This document shows, one piece after another, positions 10,054-17,701 of a stretch of DNA of 30,485 nt (position 1 is the first letter of the stretch; each line of letters begins with the position of its first letter). Under the pieces are notes generated by a model. That model worked only from the letters and a program-made list of their open reading frames with translations, searched no databases and was not told the origin of the DNA. The stretch spans positions 1 to 30,485 of the IMG/VR virus record IMGVR_UViG_3300025128_000212; one strand, written 5' to 3'. The position numbers were made by a program, and so were the translations under genes. The DNA comes from a virus.

Positions 10054-12345
10054 TTAAACATTCACATCCATCATACTCGCCAGGTGATCCGACACCGCGG
10101 TACCGAACGTCTTGTTGTTCAACTTCATTGTAATGTTTACAGGGCCTCCTCGGGCCTGGCTTCCGCCGCCCTGGGAGCGGATGGCGTTGATCAATTCTTT
10201 AAGGGGGTCTCGCACATCTTGCGCTCTCACAATTGCTGCAGAGTACTGGCTCGCTGCTGAAACGAGTCGTACCGTGTTGCTGATATCTTCAAGACCTTCC
10301 AATCTAACAACTGCGTTGATTGTTTCCTTGAAATTATCCATTGCTGTGGAAACGTTGATAACTTTGTCTGTCGGCATGTTTTCAATTACTGCGCCAAGGG
10401 AGTTCATGGCGCCGGCATAGTTTTGGATGTTCTCGGTTGATTCCTGGTCACCCATTCCTCTGAACTTTCCTACCAAAAGGCCGATTCCTGCTGCTGCTGC
10501 GCCGACTCCGATAAGAAGGGCGCCGGCTTGAATTCCGAAACCCCTTAAGGCCGTGCCGGCTGCGGTGGCTGCAGGGGTCGTCGTGGCCAATGAAGCGTTG
10601 AGGCCGGCGTTTGCTCCGGTGGCAGCGGTTGCCGTAGTGGCAACGTTCGTGTTGGCCAGCGATTGTGCTGCAGCCTGGCCTGCTGCCCTGCCCATGGCTT
10701 TTCCTAGGAGCCAAGTTCCACCAGTTAGTGTCGCAAAGACACCGATAATCCCGGTAGCCACCGCCATCGTGTTGTTCAGGTAAGACATCAAGTTACTAAT
10801 TCCAGTCGATAACTGGTTAGCTCCCACAGCCAATTCCTCAACGGAAATGGCCATCTTTTGCATAATTGTTGTATTCTGCATTGAAACCTCGTTCAATCTT
10901 GCCTCTGATCCGGCGGCATTCATAGCCTCTGAACTAAACTGGCTTAAATCATTATTCAATAATCTCATGAGAGAGTCAGTGTCTTGGATTCCTGAATTCA
11001 TTGCAATTGCTTTTGCCAAGAACCTGGATTGTGCGGATCCTGCTTTGTCCGTTATTTCTGCGTACCTGCCGCTTGCGATGATTGCCTGTCTAACAACTTG
11101 CAACCTCTGCGAATCTGTAGCAGTCATCATTGTCACCGTGTTCAAATACGGGCCGCCCAAAATAGCGTTCAATGCACCTACCTTTTGGGCTGCATCTTCG
11201 AACGTATCAAATCCTTGAGAAATGCCGATCAATCTCTGCATCTCCATTCCTGTAGCCTTAGCCTGGGCGGCTAATTTTCTAAATTCATTCGTGGCAGTGG
11301 AGCCGTACTGTGCGAGGCGTGGGGCAAGGGCTCCTAGTTCCTGAGCTAATCTTTTCGGTGGGATGCCTATGTCAGTTCCCAACTGCACCATGTCCATGGA
11401 GAACTGTTTCGCCTGGCCGATTCCCATACCGAACGTCCTTGTCAGTGTATCCATATTGGCGGCAGCGGTTGATCCAGAGACTCCGGCCTTTCCCATCTTG
11501 GCAACGAGGCCCGATAGCTCTACTTGTAAGTTTCTACCTAAGTGAGAGAACTGGGACATTTCGGTGTACAACGATGACATGGCGCCCTGGGCTTCTGATA
11601 ATGAAACACCAAACTGCCTATTTGTCATGGAGACGCCCTCTAGTACTGCGTCATATTCTCTTCCTGCTCCTGTAGCTGTTCTGAAACCAACCTTTAATTC
11701 ATCAAACCTGGTAATCATCAATATGGTTGATTCGACCACTTTCATGGCAACCATCGCGATGGCGTTCATCGGGGTGGCCATGGCTGTCATCTCGCCGCCT
11801 ACAACGGAAAGAGCTTGTGAAAAGCCCCCTGTTTCTTGGGCGGCACGGGCGAAGGTGCCAATGAAAGTGGTCTGCCAAGCTGAATCCAGGCCTGTCAGCG
11901 TAGAAACAATGTTCCTAGTTGAGTTGGCCAATTCGTTTGTAAGCTGTTGGGCCCTTCTTTGTTTTGTAAGGTTGCTATCGAGGACCCTTCCCTGGTCGCG
12001 GAGTTGATCAGCCACCGCCTGGGCACTGGCGACCTCTTGCTGTTTTGTTGCCAACTGTTCCGATGATACGCCGGCAGTTTGACGCAATGTTTCCAACTCG
12101 GCGGCGGATGTGGAGGCGAGCTGTTGCTGAACTGCAGAGAGGTTTTGTATGGTGTCAAGTTGTTTTTGCCTTAGCCCCAGAACGCGCTCGTAGGCGGCCC
12201 TCTGATCTTCAATGGCTACATTGGACTGTTGTATAGCAGCAAATCTTTCTTGCTCTTGGCGCAGTTGTTCCTTGACAACAGCAAGTTCAGCTTGTCTTTT
12301 CTGAATAGCTTCTTGTAATTTGCCAATATCTGGTCCGTCTGCCAC
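10054..12345 (-). CDS. gp29: Tail tape measure protein, gp29-like
   Basis: A 763-aa protein with the usual tape measure composition. Residues 1-130 are heptad-like coiled coil rich in Gln, Glu, Ala and Leu (QEAIQKRQAELAVVKEQL and following). A long Ala/Met/Gly/Ser-rich helical region follows, then a hydrophobic stretch near 520-650 (VATGIIGVFATLTGGTWLLG and GALLIGVGAAAAGIGLLVG) that may act in membrane passage of DNA. It should set tail length and fill the tube lumen before DNA ejection. The start is GTG at 12345 with GGGGAG about 10 bases upstream. The gene lies after the gp26/gp51-like pair, where tape measures normally follow tail assembly chaperones. For comparison T4 gp29 is about 590 aa. 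Confidence 0.85.
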   Translation of the reverse strand: MADGPDIGKLQEAIQKRQAELAVVKEQLRQEQERFAAIQQSNVAIEDQRAAYERVLGLRQKQLDTIQNLSAVQQQLASTSAAELETLRQTAGVSSEQLATKQQEVASAQAVADQLRDQGRVLDSNLTKQRRAQQLTNELANSTRNIVSTLTGLDSAWQTTFIGTFARAAQETGGFSQALSVVGGEMTAMATPMNAIAMVAMKVVESTILMITRFDELKVGFRTATGAGREYDAVLEGVSMTNRQFGVSLSEAQGAMSSLYTEMSQFSHLGRNLQVELSGLVAKMGKAGVSGSTAAANMDTLTRTFGMGIGQAKQFSMDMVQLGTDIGIPPKRLAQELGALAPRLAQYGSTATNEFRKLAAQAKATGMEMQRLIGISQGFDTFEDAAQKVGALNAILGGPYLNTVTMMTATDSQRLQVVRQAIIASGRYAEITDKAGSAQSRFLAKAIAMNSGIQDTDSLMRLLNNDLSQFSSEAMNAAGSEARLNEVSMQNTTIMQKMAISVEELAVGANQLSTGISNLMSYLNNTMAVATGIIGVFATLTGGTWLLGKAMGRAAGQAAAQSLANTNVATTATAATGANAGLNASLATTTPAATAAGTALRGFGIQAGALLIGVGAAAAGIGLLVGKFRGMGDQESTENIQNYAGAMNSLGAVIENMPTDKVINVSTAMDNFKETINAVVRLEGLEDISNTVRLVSAASQYSAAIVRAQDVRDPLKELINAIRSQGGGSQARGGPVNITMKLNNKTFGTAVSDHLASMMDVNV

Positions 12346-12359
12346 TTAGTTGATCTCCC

Positions 12360-12701
12360 CTATTTTAACGGCCATTTGATGCCCGTTCTGCGCTCGAATT
12401 TGGCGATGGCCTGGTCGAGCTTATACTTATCTTTATAAGTCTGAGGATTATCCAAGCCCAGATCAACGTATGTCTCCATATATTGTTTTTCTCTGTTTAG
12501 AACATTAGCAAAAGATTTAATCTCTGCCGGGGAGCCTTTAATTTTAAAATTTGGACCTGCCGCATCGGCAAACATATAACCCAAAATACCTTTAATGGCG
12601 CCGCCAAACATTCTTAGCCAACTTTCATTTATTTCTTTTCTTCTTGCTGCGCCCAAATCAACTACAATGGGGGCAAGTTCATTCTCATTTAAGGCTGACA
12701 T
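12360..12701 (-). CDS. Small conserved protein before the tape measure gene
   Basis: A 113-aa protein, MSALNENELAPIVVDLGAAR..., ending in an Arg/Lys-rich helix (KFERRTGIKWPLK). The start at 12701 is set by the ribosome binding site: TTGAGGAG lies just upstream, and a TTG start inside that site would be spurious. A mid-protein segment (WLRMFGGAIKGILGYMFAD) could be an amphipathic or peripheral membrane helix. No family is recognised. It lies between the gp51-like segment and the tape measure, the place of genes 27 and 28 in T4, but it is far shorter than gp27. A tail assembly role is inferred from position only. Confidence 0.65.
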   Translation of the reverse strand: MSALNENELAPIVVDLGAARRKEINESWLRMFGGAIKGILGYMFADAAGPNFKIKGSPAEIKSFANVLNREKQYMETYVDLGLDNPQTYKDKYKLDQAIAKFERRTGIKWPLK

Positions 12702-12735
12702 TGAATTTCTCCTCAAAATAAACCAATACTCTTTA

Positions 12736-12773: not shown

Positions 12774-13008
12774 TTAAGAAGTGAACGTTTGGCTTTTATT
12801 GGATTTCGCCTGGTTTGAAGCCTTTCTATAGGAGTTTTCCATGTTTTCTCTTTCAGTATTCAGTTGTTTGCTTAAGCGGTCCAGAAACCATCGCCTAATA
12901 CTTATTGGCAAATTGTATGCTTCAGTAAAGCTCCAGCCGCCATAATACTTCATGAGGAAAAACTGTTCATAGACGTCTTTTATATAATCATCGTTGAGGC
13001 CAAAAAAA
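12774..13008 (-). CDS. gp51: gp51-like tail/baseplate assembly segment, probably made by frameshift from the gp26-like gene
   Basis: The frame is open from 13082, but the conserved part begins only at 13001, right after a run of seven T: GLNDDYIKDVYEQFF, then LMKYYGGWSFTEAYNLPISIRRWFLDRL, and a Lys/Asn/Ser-rich tail, 75 aa in all. Helical (Y/W)-S-x-x-EA-x-x-LPI-x-x-R segments of this kind are familiar from the gp51-type partners of gp26 in marine T4-like phages. No start codon with a ribosome binding site precedes the conserved part in this frame: upstream residues are a shadow of the gp26-like gene, and the first ATG inside it would remove a conserved helix. The simplest reading is a +1 (or -2) frameshift at 13002-13008, giving a fusion of about 361 aa. 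A separately initiated protein is less likely but not excluded. Confidence 0.65.
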
Positions 13009-13860
13009 GTCCGCTGTGAACGGAACCTCCATGTCACCACTATAATCACACGTATTGCACGCAAACTCCTGGGAAAGATCAACGTTGGGCGTTATCTTGG
13101 CGTAGATGCTTCTTAAGTAGCGAGAATCAATCGCCGGCATATTTTCTACAAAATTATGTATGGCAGAGCGGTCGTTAGTGCCGTTAACTGCCACAATGAT
13201 CATTCTAAGTTGATCTGTTAAACTTGAATCACCTAGATTGTGTTTCTTCTTCTGTTCTGCTAGTTTAGCAATGTTCTTCTCGTCGCGACCAGTCATTAAA
13301 CGCACAGTGGTCGTAACTTTTGACTGGGGGAGATCAATAGAGAAGGTGCCGTTGTCTTCTTCCACAACTGTGCCCGGCTCAGCAGATTCGGATCCGCCTG
13401 AATTGACAAGACCTGTTCCCAAATCAAATGCATGGTCGTTAGATGTACCACAAACAGGGCACAACACCGTTGTATTGTACTGAGTACCATAGCCGGTTGC
13501 CCTAGTTGTAACTAAAATAGAGTTCTTGTCGCCAACAAGCATATCATCAATATTGATGGACTTATCAACTATCACATTCTTTAACAACCTATCGATTGCG
13601 ATACCCTGCTTGAGAAGTGTTCTAGAAGTTAGAATATCCTCATCCTTGGCCGTCATGTGCTTGATTTCCACTGTGGTCACATTGTGTAGAGGGTGGTCAG
13701 TGGGATAGTATCTACCCCCGGATGGCAATCCAACAAATTCTGTTGGTGTTGCAAAAGAGAAGGCTGCGCCTTCGGGGGCTTGGGTTGCAATAGCTTCGAC
13801 GGGGTTGTCAACCTGCTGGTCAACTGCGCCGATTCTATCTTCATTGTTTCTTTGGGTCAT
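12988..13860 (-). CDS. gp26: Baseplate hub/tail assembly protein, gp26-like, with zinc ribbon
   Basis: A 290-aa protein. EFVGLPSGGRYYP (41-53) and KHMTAKDEDILTSRTLL (67-83) with AIDRLLKNVIVD are the conserved core of the T4 baseplate gp26 family (the LPSxGxxY motif of Pfam T4_baseplate). Two CxxC pairs, CPVC at 134-137 and CNTC at 268-271, should form a zinc ribbon. It ends in VPFTADFFWPQR. Its last codons overlap the gp51-like frame across a T7 run at 13008-13002. The position upstream of the tape measure and the overlapping second frame match the layout of tail assembly chaperone pairs in many tailed phages. The length is greater than T4 gp26 (208 aa), mainly from the N-terminal tail and the zinc-ribbon region. 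The ATG at 13860 has GAGGT upstream. Confidence 0.82.
   Translation of the reverse strand: MTQRNNEDRIGAVDQQVDNPVEAIATQAPEGAAFSFATPTEFVGLPSGGRYYPTDHPLHNVTTVEIKHMTAKDEDILTSRTLLKQGIAIDRLLKNVIVDKSINIDDMLVGDKNSILVTTRATGYGTQYNTTVLCPVCGTSNDHAFDLGTGLVNSGGSESAEPGTVVEEDNGTFSIDLPQSKVTTTVRLMTGRDEKNIAKLAEQKKKHNLGDSSLTDQLRMIIVAVNGTNDRSAIHNFVENMPAIDSRYLRSIYAKITPNVDLSQEFACNTCDYSGDMEVPFTADFFWPQR
13002..13008 (-). other. Candidate programmed frameshift site (T7 run)
   Basis: On the minus strand the zero frame reads GAC TTT TTT TGG CCT CAA CGA TGA and stops. A +1 shift after the second TTT gives GAC TTT TTT (T) GGC CTC AAC, entering the gp51-like frame. A -2 shift gives the same frame with one extra Phe. A -1 shift leads to a stop after 7 codons and is not useful. 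No downstream hairpin was examined computationally. Confidence 0.55.
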
Positions 13861-13945: not shown

Positions 13946-14530
13946 TTATAGTGCATCAACGGTGCCGTCACCTCTGGTGAAGACAAGATCTGCATAATCA
14001 TAGCGCATGGTGACAGAAATCTGTACCAACTCGTCGGAGTCGTAAGAAAGATCGCCATACTGTACTGAAGTGATAAACGGATTGTAGATAACCCACTCTT
14101 CCAAAACTCCCTTGTGGCCGGGACCATAACCATCAGTAATCTGCTTGATGGAGATCTGGCCACCAATTGAAGGTCGGAAACCGTTCTTGGTGATGATGTG
14201 CGACTCAGCAGCTTCGCGGGTCGTGGGGGGATTGTAGCCAGCGCGCTTGATGATATTCAAGAACGTCTGAGCCATGTCAGGATCAATAGGATCAACCAAA
14301 GTAACATCGATAGGAGCCCAATCCAGCTTGCCGGGGTAATAGAACGTGTGGTTCAAGAACTGGTGACCGGCCTCTGTAATAGAAAGGCTGGGCTTCGTAA
14401 CTCTCTTCACTACCCATACAGGAACGCTATCCATTGAGAGGATAAACCTAGATTGTCTTTTTGGTTCTGTTGTTCTGCCACCGGGGCCTCCGGCGCCGGT
14501 CCAAAATGTAGCATCTGAAAGAGTTGCCAT
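13946..14530 (-). CDS. gp19: Tail tube protein, gp19-like
   Basis: A 194-aa protein of the size and character of T4-like tube subunits: RFILSMDSVPVWVVKRVTKP (29-48), a pattern for the first strand and loop of the tube fold, then WAPIDVTLVDPIDPD and a C-terminal strand segment EEWVIYNPFITSVQYGDLSYD followed by E-LVQISVTMRYDYA. These correspond to the conserved beta-sandwich that stacks as hexamers inside the sheath. It follows the sheath gene directly, as gene 19 follows 18 in T4. The ATG at 14530 has ATAGGAGAA upstream and an ACTAATTA element at 14560-14553. It should be a major virion protein. Assignment is strong from sequence pattern, length and order together. Confidence 0.88.
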   Translation of the reverse strand: MATLSDATFWTGAGGPGGRTTEPKRQSRFILSMDSVPVWVVKRVTKPSLSITEAGHQFLNHTFYYPGKLDWAPIDVTLVDPIDPDMAQTFLNIIKRAGYNPPTTREAAESHIITKNGFRPSIGGQISIKQITDGYGPGHKGVLEEWVIYNPFITSVQYGDLSYDSDELVQISVTMRYDYADLVFTRGDGTVDAL

Positions 14531-14572: not shown

Positions 14573-17500
14573 TTAATCCTCAAAAGATGCGCCTGATCTT
14601 GTAATTACAAAGTCAAGTGCAATGAACTCAATTGCTCTCGTCGGCTTAAGAAGGATCTTTGCGTACATGATATTTCTATCAACCAAGTCTGAAGTGGTTG
14701 TGGTCTCATCCAAGATTACCTTGAAGTCTACCAATCCAAGTCTAGCCTGGACGCTCTTCAAGAACGGCTCGGCCTGTCTCTTAAACCTATCCCAAGTGGC
14801 AGCAACGTTCTGGTCGAACAGTACTGTCGAAGCCATTCTAGAGATTTCCTTCTTAACATAAATGAGAAGTCTTCTGACATTGATTCTGTCAAGAGCAGTG
14901 GCATCAGCCTGAAGCGTCTTTTGTCCGAAGATTACAATACCCTCGGCCGGGAACTGCGCAATCGGGTTGATGTTCTGCTCATAAAGTTTGTCACGTTCTG
15001 CAGAAGTCAATCTCTGGCGAAGGCCGGTGATTGTCAGACCAGCGGCTCCAGAAGAAAGCCCCCCTCTGTTGAATCCGGCAGGGGCAAACCAAAGTTCTGA
15101 ATTTGCCTCGCTGTACGACAGGGCGCCTAGGGCTGCAATCGAGGGCGGTGCCCAGAAAGAAGTTCCATCAGCGCTGTCTCTTACCTGGACCCATGGCCAG
15201 TAGCATGCCCCGTAGCTCGTGTTAAGTCGCCGGGACTTGATGTTTGTCACCACATCGTTTACAGCAGTATCAGACATTCTATCAGCCTCTGACTTGTTGT
15301 TCTCATAAGCGGGGTCGTACCCACCTTCGATATCAACAATCGCCAGAGCATCGCCGCGGGCATCACATGTGTTCAGCAAGTGGTCCGTTAGAGTTGTCTC
15401 TCTAATACCCGGCATTGCTACCAAGTTACATTCGACAACTTCGGGGTCGGCGATTGTATCAATTGCTCTCTTAATGGAATACCACTCATACGAGGTTGTT
15501 GCTGTTCCGTCGGCAGTATTTCTATCGGCGAAAGGTTCTTTTTCCAAGATATTCATGCCGTCCTGGCCGCCGTGGAAAACAGTTGTGAAACTGTCAAATC
15601 CCTGGTCGAGGACGTCATTGTAAGTCCCTGCAATAGCCGTGTAGGACATACCTGCCACTCTCTTGCCGGCGGCGTAGTCAGCGTCAGATGCGGCGCGAGA
15701 GGCCTCATCGGCGACGGAACCGGAGCCAACATCGTCCAGTGAGAAGATCCAAGAATATTCTGTTTTGGCCCCGTCTACATGTGTTAAGCCAGATCCAGTT
15801 GTTGCAGTGAAATTATCAACACTCTTTGGCATGGCCCTTAGAATATCCAGATTGCTGTCTTCAAATCGCAGGTTGCTGTTTCCAACCTGTGTAAGATCAA
15901 CTCCGAAATAAGCATCCTTCTTAGAAGTCATGTTACCGTGAGATGCCGACACCCTTAACGCAACCTTTGGGAATGAGTAAGAGCCGGTGAAGCACACGCT
16001 AGCCGCATTCGCGCCGAACGCGCCTTCGATGTGGCTTCCGAAAACTTTGAATTCCGCACTGCCGCCGAAGGCGCCGTGTGTCCCGAGGGGATCTCCACCA
16101 TGGGCGGCAGCGCTGGCCTGGCGGATGCTGGCAGTAGCTGCAATGTTGTTGGCTCCGCGTACGAAGAGGTGAGAGCCCACCGTCTGACCTAGGGCGTTGT
16201 ACTTTCCATAGTCTCCAGTTCCAGCGCCGGCTGTAATATCGTAATCATCAATTCTCGGCATCGCTCCAGAGACGGAGTTCACACCATTCGCTTGAGACCC
16301 ACTAACACACACGAATGCGGAGAATCTTAGAGGACCGTGTACGCCGAAGGGCAGGTTCAGTGGATTGGTGCTGCCGCGGTCGACCTCTGTGTTCATCTCA
16401 ATTCTGAAGTACTTTGAGTTATTCTCATAATTGCCTCTATTGACAATTCTTGCATCGTCCTCGTCCCAAGTTACATAACTGTCACCAATTTTCGTGGCAA
16501 TGTAATTGGGGGAAGCGGGATTCAAGTTACAATTTGTGTACTGCTCAACAATCTGAGGCGAATTGTCAGTATCGTGGATTCTTCTCACCTGTACAGTGAA
16601 TGTTCCGTAAGGGTTGACATCTGAATTTGTCGAAGCCTTGATATCTGCAATAGATATCTTGAGGTTGTTTTGAATCCACTCGCCATCGTCCAAGCCATGA
16701 AATTTGAATAACTTCTGCATGTTGTAGGGCTTGTAATTGGCAGTGTCAGAGCCGAGGTCCTGTGCGATAAACCAACCTGTCTGGCAAGGTGCTGCGTCTC
16801 CCTTTCTCTGGTCTCCTTTCCAAACAGCAGACCCAGAAGAAATTGACCATATTACACCATAGCTACTCGTAGTCGTGTTCATGAGCGTAGTTCCGAGCCT
16901 GGATTCCAGATGGTGATCAAAGCTTTCGCCGAGCCAATAGTTTACTTGCGAATCTTTGTCGACAAGTGCGGTGTTCGTTAGTTGTGGATTTGTGTTAAAA
17001 ACCTTTCTAATGTATTTTTCGGAGTCTCTATTAAAATTAAATCTTATTCTTTCTTTTTCCGAAGCAGAAGAACCCGTGTATTGGAAAATCACCGCCTCAT
17101 ATTCAGCATAAGTCGCCCTTGCTTGCACAAGAACGTTGGTGCCGCTTAGAGTGGCGCCGGCTTGTGTAGCTGAACCTGTTACGCCGGCGAGGCCGATGGC
17201 CCCGTTTTCAACGTACCAAACGGCTGCCAGGGCGCCGGAGGCTTCAATGCCGGTGGCGGTGACGGGGCCTGATTGGGATTTGGCGACAAAAAGACCATAA
17301 GCTCCGCCATTGCTCTCAACATGGTTGGTAGGTCCATTCGAAGTCTTCCAGCCGGCTAAACCTGCCGTAGTGGCATCTGAGTGCTCCTTACCTACAAGGC
17401 GCATGACTGTGATGGGAGAGTTATTTCGTAACCAAGCTTGTGCGGCGTATGCGGCATATGTGGGGGATGATTTATTGCCATCTCTCCAAACATCTCCACC

Positions 17501-17701
17501 CTTGCCACCGGGCTCGGGGGCTCCGAAAATGTTTACAAACTCCTCAAATGAAGAAACCTGTACAGGGCGCATCGCTGGTCCGTGCGGAAGGCGACCAATT
17601 ACGACGGGGCCGATACCTTCAGGTGTGGAAGGCAGGCGTGAATTATCAATTTCATTGGTAAAAACACCCGGAGATACAAACTTAAACTTTTTAACTGACA
17701 T
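14573..17701 (-). CDS. gp18: Contractile tail sheath protein, gp18-like
   Basis: A 1042-aa sheath subunit. The N-terminus KKFKFVSPGVFTNEIDNSRL has the SPGV-E-D start typical of sheath proteins, and FVNIFGAPEP and AAQAWLRNNSPITVMRLVG follow within 110 residues. The C-terminal 250 residues hold the conserved core: ASYG-YWPWVQVRD, RQRLTSAERDKLYEQNINPIA, GIVIFGQKTL, LDRINVRRLLIYVKKEI, VLFDQN, and A-EFIALDFVITRSGASFED at the end. It is about 380 residues longer than T4 gp18 (659 aa). The extra length lies between roughly residues 120 and 700 and is Gly/Ser/Ala/Thr-rich and beta-prone, which suggests added surface domains. The ATG at 17701 has AAGGGAGAA upstream. Confidence 0.93.
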   Translation of the reverse strand: MSVKKFKFVSPGVFTNEIDNSRLPSTPEGIGPVVIGRLPHGPAMRPVQVSSFEEFVNIFGAPEPGGKGGDVWRDGNKSSPTYAAYAAQAWLRNNSPITVMRLVGKEHSDATTAGLAGWKTSNGPTNHVESNGGAYGLFVAKSQSGPVTATGIEASGALAAVWYVENGAIGLAGVTGSATQAGATLSGTNVLVQARATYAEYEAVIFQYTGSSASEKERIRFNFNRDSEKYIRKVFNTNPQLTNTALVDKDSQVNYWLGESFDHHLESRLGTTLMNTTTSSYGVIWSISSGSAVWKGDQRKGDAAPCQTGWFIAQDLGSDTANYKPYNMQKLFKFHGLDDGEWIQNNLKISIADIKASTNSDVNPYGTFTVQVRRIHDTDNSPQIVEQYTNCNLNPASPNYIATKIGDSYVTWDEDDARIVNRGNYENNSKYFRIEMNTEVDRGSTNPLNLPFGVHGPLRFSAFVCVSGSQANGVNSVSGAMPRIDDYDITAGAGTGDYGKYNALGQTVGSHLFVRGANNIAATASIRQASAAAHGGDPLGTHGAFGGSAEFKVFGSHIEGAFGANAASVCFTGSYSFPKVALRVSASHGNMTSKKDAYFGVDLTQVGNSNLRFEDSNLDILRAMPKSVDNFTATTGSGLTHVDGAKTEYSWIFSLDDVGSGSVADEASRAASDADYAAGKRVAGMSYTAIAGTYNDVLDQGFDSFTTVFHGGQDGMNILEKEPFADRNTADGTATTSYEWYSIKRAIDTIADPEVVECNLVAMPGIRETTLTDHLLNTCDARGDALAIVDIEGGYDPAYENNKSEADRMSDTAVNDVVTNIKSRRLNTSYGACYWPWVQVRDSADGTSFWAPPSIAALGALSYSEANSELWFAPAGFNRGGLSSGAAGLTITGLRQRLTSAERDKLYEQNINPIAQFPAEGIVIFGQKTLQADATALDRINVRRLLIYVKKEISRMASTVLFDQNVAATWDRFKRQAEPFLKSVQARLGLVDFKVILDETTTTSDLVDRNIMYAKILLKPTRAIEFIALDFVITRSGASFED

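Follow-up and report, generated by a model that had tools for sequence, protein, structure and literature searches.

A phage tail gene in the viral DNA analysed here (the window, 30,485 nucleotides of IMG/VR record IMGVR_UViG_3300025128_000212) probably yields two tail assembly chaperone (TAC) proteins, TAC-N and TAC-NC, by a +1 slip during translation. The initial annotation had proposed a programmed frameshift that fuses a gp26-like to a gp51-like part, and comparison of relatives strongly supports that proposal: the two parts are almost certainly joined by frameshifting. The comparison shows conserved overlapping reading frames, a shift site, selection for protein in the +1 frame and, in many relatives, the lack of a start codon from which the second part could be made on its own. 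The locus is very probably a TAC-N/TAC-NC gene, the equivalent of lambda G/GT.

Layout of the locus and its conservation in relatives

The features of the locus and its neighbours are as follows, in window coordinates.

13860..12988, minus strand: TAC-N, the gp26-like ORF, 290 aa by standard decoding, ending ...TADFFWPQR* (PF12322, E 1.5e-10; PHROG 150)
13002..13008, minus strand: T7 run, the putative shift site UUU_UGG, with UUU (13005-13003) in the P site and then U(GG) (comparison of loci)
12774..13001, minus strand: TAC-C, the +1-frame extension, 75 codons from GGC (13001), stop at 12776-12774 (conserved only in the +1 frame; homology to the cyanophage gp51 extension)
12988..12990, minus strand: TGA, the frame-0 stop of TAC-N (sequence)
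13026..13030, minus strand: GGAGG, Shine-Dalgarno-like, a suspected stimulator (synonymous codon bias)
13946..14530, minus strand: tail tube protein (PHROG 4542 tail tube, E 2e-20)
14573..17701, minus strand: tail sheath protein (PHROG 23 tail sheath, E 2e-66)
12360..12716, minus strand: 118-aa ORF between the TAC locus and the tape measure candidate (Phage_connect_2 match below the curated cutoff)
10054..12345, minus strand: tape measure candidate, 763 aa (position and length)

The gp26-like ORF matched PF12322 (T4_baseplate) with 41.6 bits, above the curated cutoff of 24.5, and PHROG 150, which is annotated 'baseplate hub'. On the minus strand its 3′ end reads GAC(13011-13009) TTT TTT T(13002)GG CCT CAA CGA TGA(12990-12988), with the frame-0 stop 11 nt past the T7 run (13008-13002). 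The +1 frame continues from the run as TTT TTT GGC CTC AAC GAT GAT TAT ATA ... to the stop at 12776-12774 and translates as FFGLNDDYIKDVYEQFFLMKYYGGWSFTEAYNLPISIRRWFLDRL...; in the +1 reading, the fused product has 361 aa and the junction ADFF-GLNDD.

Upstream of the chaperone gene lie the tail tube and tail sheath genes, and downstream the 118-aa ORF is followed by the tape measure candidate, placing the TAC locus between the tail tube gene and the probable tape measure gene. ORF 10054-12345 is probably the tape measure protein by position and length; it matched no family, and its similarity to two phage ORFs placed alike was not significant. In 15 of 17 relatives, an ORF of at least 500 aa occupies this place just downstream. 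The overlapping frames had been described as lying directly upstream of the tape measure region, which holds insofar as a candidate identified by position is found downstream, but one 118-aa ORF intervenes. A blastn search of the locus against phages returned no match.

Relatives were collected in two scans. The first, of IMG/VR, used patterns that do not touch the shift site and returned 13 loci including the window's own copy. The +1-frame extension was present in 13/13, nearly all reading NNC TTT TTT TGG CCT; with the window's own copy left out, 12/12 relatives (39-53% identity) had the same +1 layout as the window. The larger set was drawn from IMG/VR, GTDB genomes, Microcystis phage Mel-JY01, Flavobacterium phage immuto and one huge phage, using two patterns; one of them spans the FFWP end, but the second, located far from it, is likewise present in nearly all loci. 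All 110 informative window-type loci in this set displayed the +1 layout (one further contig ends too early), and nearly all read NNN TTT TTT TGG CCT. These relatives confirm that the gp26-like frame ends just past the T7 run and that the gp51-like part lies in the +1 frame from the run onwards. Judged by pN/pS (0.59 in the +1 frame versus 0.93 and 1.30 in the other two frames), the extension evolves under protein-level constraint in the +1 frame only. Pfam scans of the relatives gave, beside PF12322, only zinc-ribbon side matches.

Direction and origin of the proposed slip

The initial annotation had left the choice between a +1 and a −2 shift, and the reading frame fits both. The P-site codon, the TTC TTT variants of the site and the codon upstream of it point to +1, which is the likely direction of the frameshift. 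Among 104 unique loci, the P-site codon before TGG is TTT in 100, CTT in 4 and TTC in none, compared with a TTC share of 23% among the Phe codons elsewhere in the same ORFs. When U follows UUU or CUU, the P-site tRNA is able to pair again after moving forward by one base, and UUU is one of the codons prone to +1 shifts (PMC10274946).

A −2 ribosomal frameshift at the T7 run would reach the same frame with one extra Phe at the junction (ADFFFGLNDD, ADFFFGLNDDYIK). A slip of this kind is known in a tail gene of phage Mu (PMC5009743), the canonical T7 run permits it, and a Shine-Dalgarno-like element far upstream should tend to draw the ribosome backwards. Natural variants of the site nevertheless make a −2 slip unlikely. 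Five unique loci, some with GGAGG kept, read TTC TTT TGG, where tRNA-Phe re-pairs with UUU after a +1 slip but would be left on UCU after −2, so these variants fit +1 only. The same holds for the more distant GXN1 (TTC TTT CGT) and for Streptomyces phages such as BRock (CTG TTT CGC). A further form, TTT CTT TGG, found in four loci, fits +1 and −2 about equally.

The codon before TTT TTT also bears on the direction. It ends in T in 0/95 loci, compared with 55 expected from residue-specific usage, although the loci are related, so that the statistics are not independent and nominal P values overstate the case. Nine different residues are encoded at this codon; for Asp, the ratio is GAC 67 : GAT 0, against 553 : 1294 elsewhere, and GAT occurs here only ahead of TTC. 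Absence of a third-position T before TTT TTT removes the −1 heptamer T TTT TTT, as selection for a forward slip would do. A −1 signal, consisting of an X XXY YYZ heptamer with an extension in the −1 frame, was looked for in the window type, where the extension proved to be in the +1 frame and the heptamer avoided.

Upstream of the shift site, 66/105 unique loci have GGAGG at a constant distance of 20 nt from the P-site codon (13026-13030, minus strand, in the window). The Glu codon at this element is GAG in 67 cases and GAA in one, whereas the ratio elsewhere in the same ORFs is GAG 667 : GAA 1211 (35% GAG) and, in the same context NNG GAR GTN elsewhere, GAA 14 : GAG 1. By this codon bias, GGAGG is kept at the synonymous level, and it is a candidate stimulator of the slip. 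A role as Shine-Dalgarno sequence for initiation was rejected, there being no start codon 6-12 nt after GGAGG in most loci. Downstream RNA structure was not seen in the +1 group (mean z −0.69 downstream and −0.21 around the site), nor did GGAGG show any structure in its surroundings.

The +1 signal of prfB (RF2) combines a P-site YUU followed by U with a slow A site and an upstream Shine-Dalgarno-like element. In prfB the A site holds a stop codon and the Shine-Dalgarno element is a few nucleotides away, whereas the window has UGG and a GGAGG at 20 nt; when the prfB-type signal was compared with the window, only YUU_U was common to both. We know of no +1 signal with a Shine-Dalgarno-like element at a 20-nt spacing. 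We tentatively suggest that the window type may use a +1 signal of new build, composed of UUU_UGG, a preceding codon without T in third position, which would prevent a −1 site, and a GGAGG stimulating at 20 nt, within a family that uses −1, +1 and duplication.

A different origin for the second product would be slippage of RNA polymerase at the T run, giving rise to frame-restoring mRNAs. A homopolymer run is present, but it is only seven T long and is broken by a C (TTC TTT or TTT CTT) in 9/104 unique loci, and the constraints on the P-site and upstream codons match decoding rather than transcription. Polymerase slippage is thus very unlikely.

It is similarly improbable that the gp51-like part is a separate gene with its own start inside the end of gp26. 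Databases annotate it in this way for S-PM2 gp51 and Mel-JY01; in some cyanophages an ATG follows the gp26 stop by 5 nt, and in about half of the window-type loci an internal ATG follows the shift site at 18 nt. However, between the opening of the +1 frame and 45 nt past the site, 19/109 window-type loci lack any ATG, GTG or TTG (45 lack ATG), which excludes a separate gp51 start in those loci, and 19/89 cyanophage, KVP40 and jumbo-type loci likewise lack a start codon before the conserved core. Independent initiation was rejected as a general explanation on the start-codon-free loci. Moreover, the conserved domain starts at the shift site, and T4 gp51 carries this domain joined in frame to a complete PF12322 domain. 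In the window itself, the +1 frame contains no ATG before the conserved core and no start with a Shine-Dalgarno sequence at initiation spacing; its GTG and TTG codons lie only well upstream (the start chosen by the ORF caller is TTG 13082). The earlier statement that gp51 has no usable start is therefore upheld for ATG and for starts with a spaced Shine-Dalgarno, and has to be qualified by the upstream GTG and TTG codons. Both features sought across related phages were found, the shift-site run in nearly all loci and the missing gp51 start codons in the 19 loci above; relatives with an independent gp51 start, which had been named as evidence against frameshifting, were also sought, and many relatives proved to lack any start codon, although the ATG past the gp26 stop in some cyanophages is annotated in databases as the start of a separate gp51 gene.

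Homopolymers are error-prone, but a sequencing or assembly error in the T7 run of a single true ORF has a negligible probability and is excluded by the +1 layout kept in 110/110 relatives from independent assemblies, among them cultured Microcystis and Flavobacterium phages, and broken-run variants exist.

We infer a ribosomal event of the following kind and efficiency. Most ribosomes would read the gp26-like frame to its stop and produce TAC-N. In a minority, with tRNA-Phe on the P-site UUU and the Trp codon UGG in the A site, a one-base forward slip would let the tRNA re-pair with the next UUU, and these ribosomes would produce TAC-NC (361 aa, ...ADFF-GLNDD..., +1 junction ADFFGLNDDYIK). By analogy with lambda, many copies of TAC-N would coat the tape measure protein, while a few of TAC-NC would recruit tube subunits through the extension.

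Homologous loci with −1 frameshifts or two genes

Homologues from S-PM2-type cyanophages, KVP40-type phages and jumbo phages (90 loci) carry the extension in the −1 frame without exception (90/90). The slippery sequence T TTT TTC was located automatically in 89/90 of them, and the remaining huge phage, LR756511, reads GGT TTT TTC. The codon before the slippery run ends in T and is represented by seven different codons. A G-rich GAGGG, an element given for cyanophages, stands about 10 nt upstream in most loci. On the downstream side, a 75-nt segment is more stably folded than shuffled sequence (mean z −2.42, 65% below −2), in many loci as a distinct hairpin. This arrangement is the classical one for −1 signals in bacteria. 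These loci resemble the window in their homologous TAC-N and extension, in the position of the shift within the gene and in a poly-T slippery site. They differ in that the shift is −1 at T TTT TTC, in cyanophages with GAGGG and a downstream hairpin, whereas the window type would shift +1 at TTT_TGG with no detectable hairpin.

Short cyanophage genes annotated 'gp51 baseplate hub assembly catalyst', such as S-PM2 gp51 (L033 2191-2364), are probably the −1 extension of gp26 rather than separate genes. For annotation, this means that 'gp51' in many phage genomes is better called a frameshifted extension than a separate gene.

The T4 proteins gp26 and gp51 are paralogues, each of them a complete PF12322 protein (E 9e-64 and 4e-52, respectively). 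T4 gp26 ends (LKEFFELL*) at the position of the shift site, while gp51 continues into the extension. T4-type phages are thus like the window in having the PF12322 domain, a gp26 that stops at the place of the shift and a gp51 with a homologous extension; they are unlike it in using two paralogous genes, divergently transcribed in T4, in place of one gene with a frameshift. The paralogy, the gp26 end and the extension on gp51 support the earlier suggestion that T4 gp26/gp51 is the equivalent of lambda G/GT.

Homology of the extensions was assessed with hhalign. Window-type extensions matched those of cyanophages (prob 96, E 4e-9), which in turn matched the C-terminus of T4 gp51 (prob 97, E 1e-10). 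Compared directly by profile, the window-type extension and that C-terminus gave no significant match, and the link runs via the cyanophage extensions. A match to the window type was also obtained with extensions from Firmicute and Streptomyces phages (prob 96.6); Bacillus phage SP-15 and Streptomyces phage BRock are among the cultured relatives.

Whole records of frameshift-type phages contained one PF12322 gene wherever the profile found any. In the window, a search for a second PF12322 gene gave one match only, the window being a fragment. Two PF12322 genes were found in T4, RB43, a Krischvirus and seven further T4-type records, two of these T4-type records showing three PF12322 pieces, one gene being split. 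In one T4-type record gp51 is in two pieces (L222, G013:C1:125062-125666), with an error, an insertion and recoding as possible causes.

In the phylogenetic tree, T4-type gp26 and gp51 form one clade (99/96), within which support for the gp51s is 99/90. These sequences are most simply read as a single duplication that took the place of frameshifting in the T4 group, with at least one switch of direction in the family. The tree also placed a −1 huge phage inside the +1 group: LR756511 (L020) has a −1 site, yet its PF12322 protein falls inside the +1 clade, which points to a change in the direction of frameshifting within a homologous gene. One gene family appears to make the same protein pair by −1 frameshifting, by +1 frameshifting and by duplication.

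Probable chaperone function and known systems

The locus has what characterises a TAC gene: its overlapping frames meet close to the 3′ end of TAC-N, and the extension is selected in the shifted frame. Structure models were made for TAC-N and for a T4-type gp51 that is naturally in frame. The AF2 model of the window TAC-N had a mean pLDDT of 90, and 797 Foldseek candidates were realigned against it. The best two matches were 3klu YqbN (Z 5.6), which we take to be an XkdN-type phage chaperone, and 2ob9 HK97 TAC (Z 5.3), followed by a next-best Z of 4.2; these scores are modest, and since a Z under 8 is weak alone, the structural matches serve as supporting evidence. Structural search with the T4 gp51-type model gave no TAC match, and sequence searches of solved structures gave nothing useful. 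The third-best match, to residues 170-264 of the TAC-N model (Z 4.2), was 5ir0, the structure of ORF19 from a PICI-like element in Vibrio cholerae; it would be notable for a satellite to encode a protein similar to a tail chaperone domain of phages.

Lambda gpG/gpGT is like the window in forming a short and a long chaperone with a common N-terminus from a gene before the tape measure (PMC5009743), but it uses a −1 shift and has no recognisable sequence similarity. Tail genes of Mu (−2) and of the haloarchaeal myovirus HSTV-2 (very likely +1) have the same two-product layout with alternate directions (PMC5009743); they have no known homology to the window, and the likeness is one of layout and use of direction. 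A 2016 review described G/GT frameshifting as widely conserved 'except T4', with −1, −2 and +1 shifts in different phages (PMC5009743). In a review of T4, gp26 and gp51 are hub assembly chaperones, gp51 being essential and of unknown function (PMC3004832). T4 26/51 as TACs are, by the title cited in PMC12846349, the subject of Vladimirov, Gautam and Davidson 2022 (Virology 566:9-15). With that publication, the TAC reading of T4 gp26/gp51 was already known. Its authors are said to describe T4 26/51 as TAC-N/TAC-NC made from separate genes, with frameshifting kept in other T4-like groups. The data presented here provide independent support for that work.

Among open papers, no description of the +1 group was found. 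Within the known TAC kind, the +1 shift and the signal for it may be a new version. Roughly one hundred naturally occurring versions of a +1 shift site are available in the +1 group, together with a signature of direction at the synonymous level, making the +1 mechanism directly testable.

A weak match (E 0.01) was observed between the fused protein of phage 121Q (L025) and PHROG 1854 'PmgB-like'. A role as tape measure chaperone has been suggested for PmgB of P1 (PMC9024508), and there may thus be a distant relationship.
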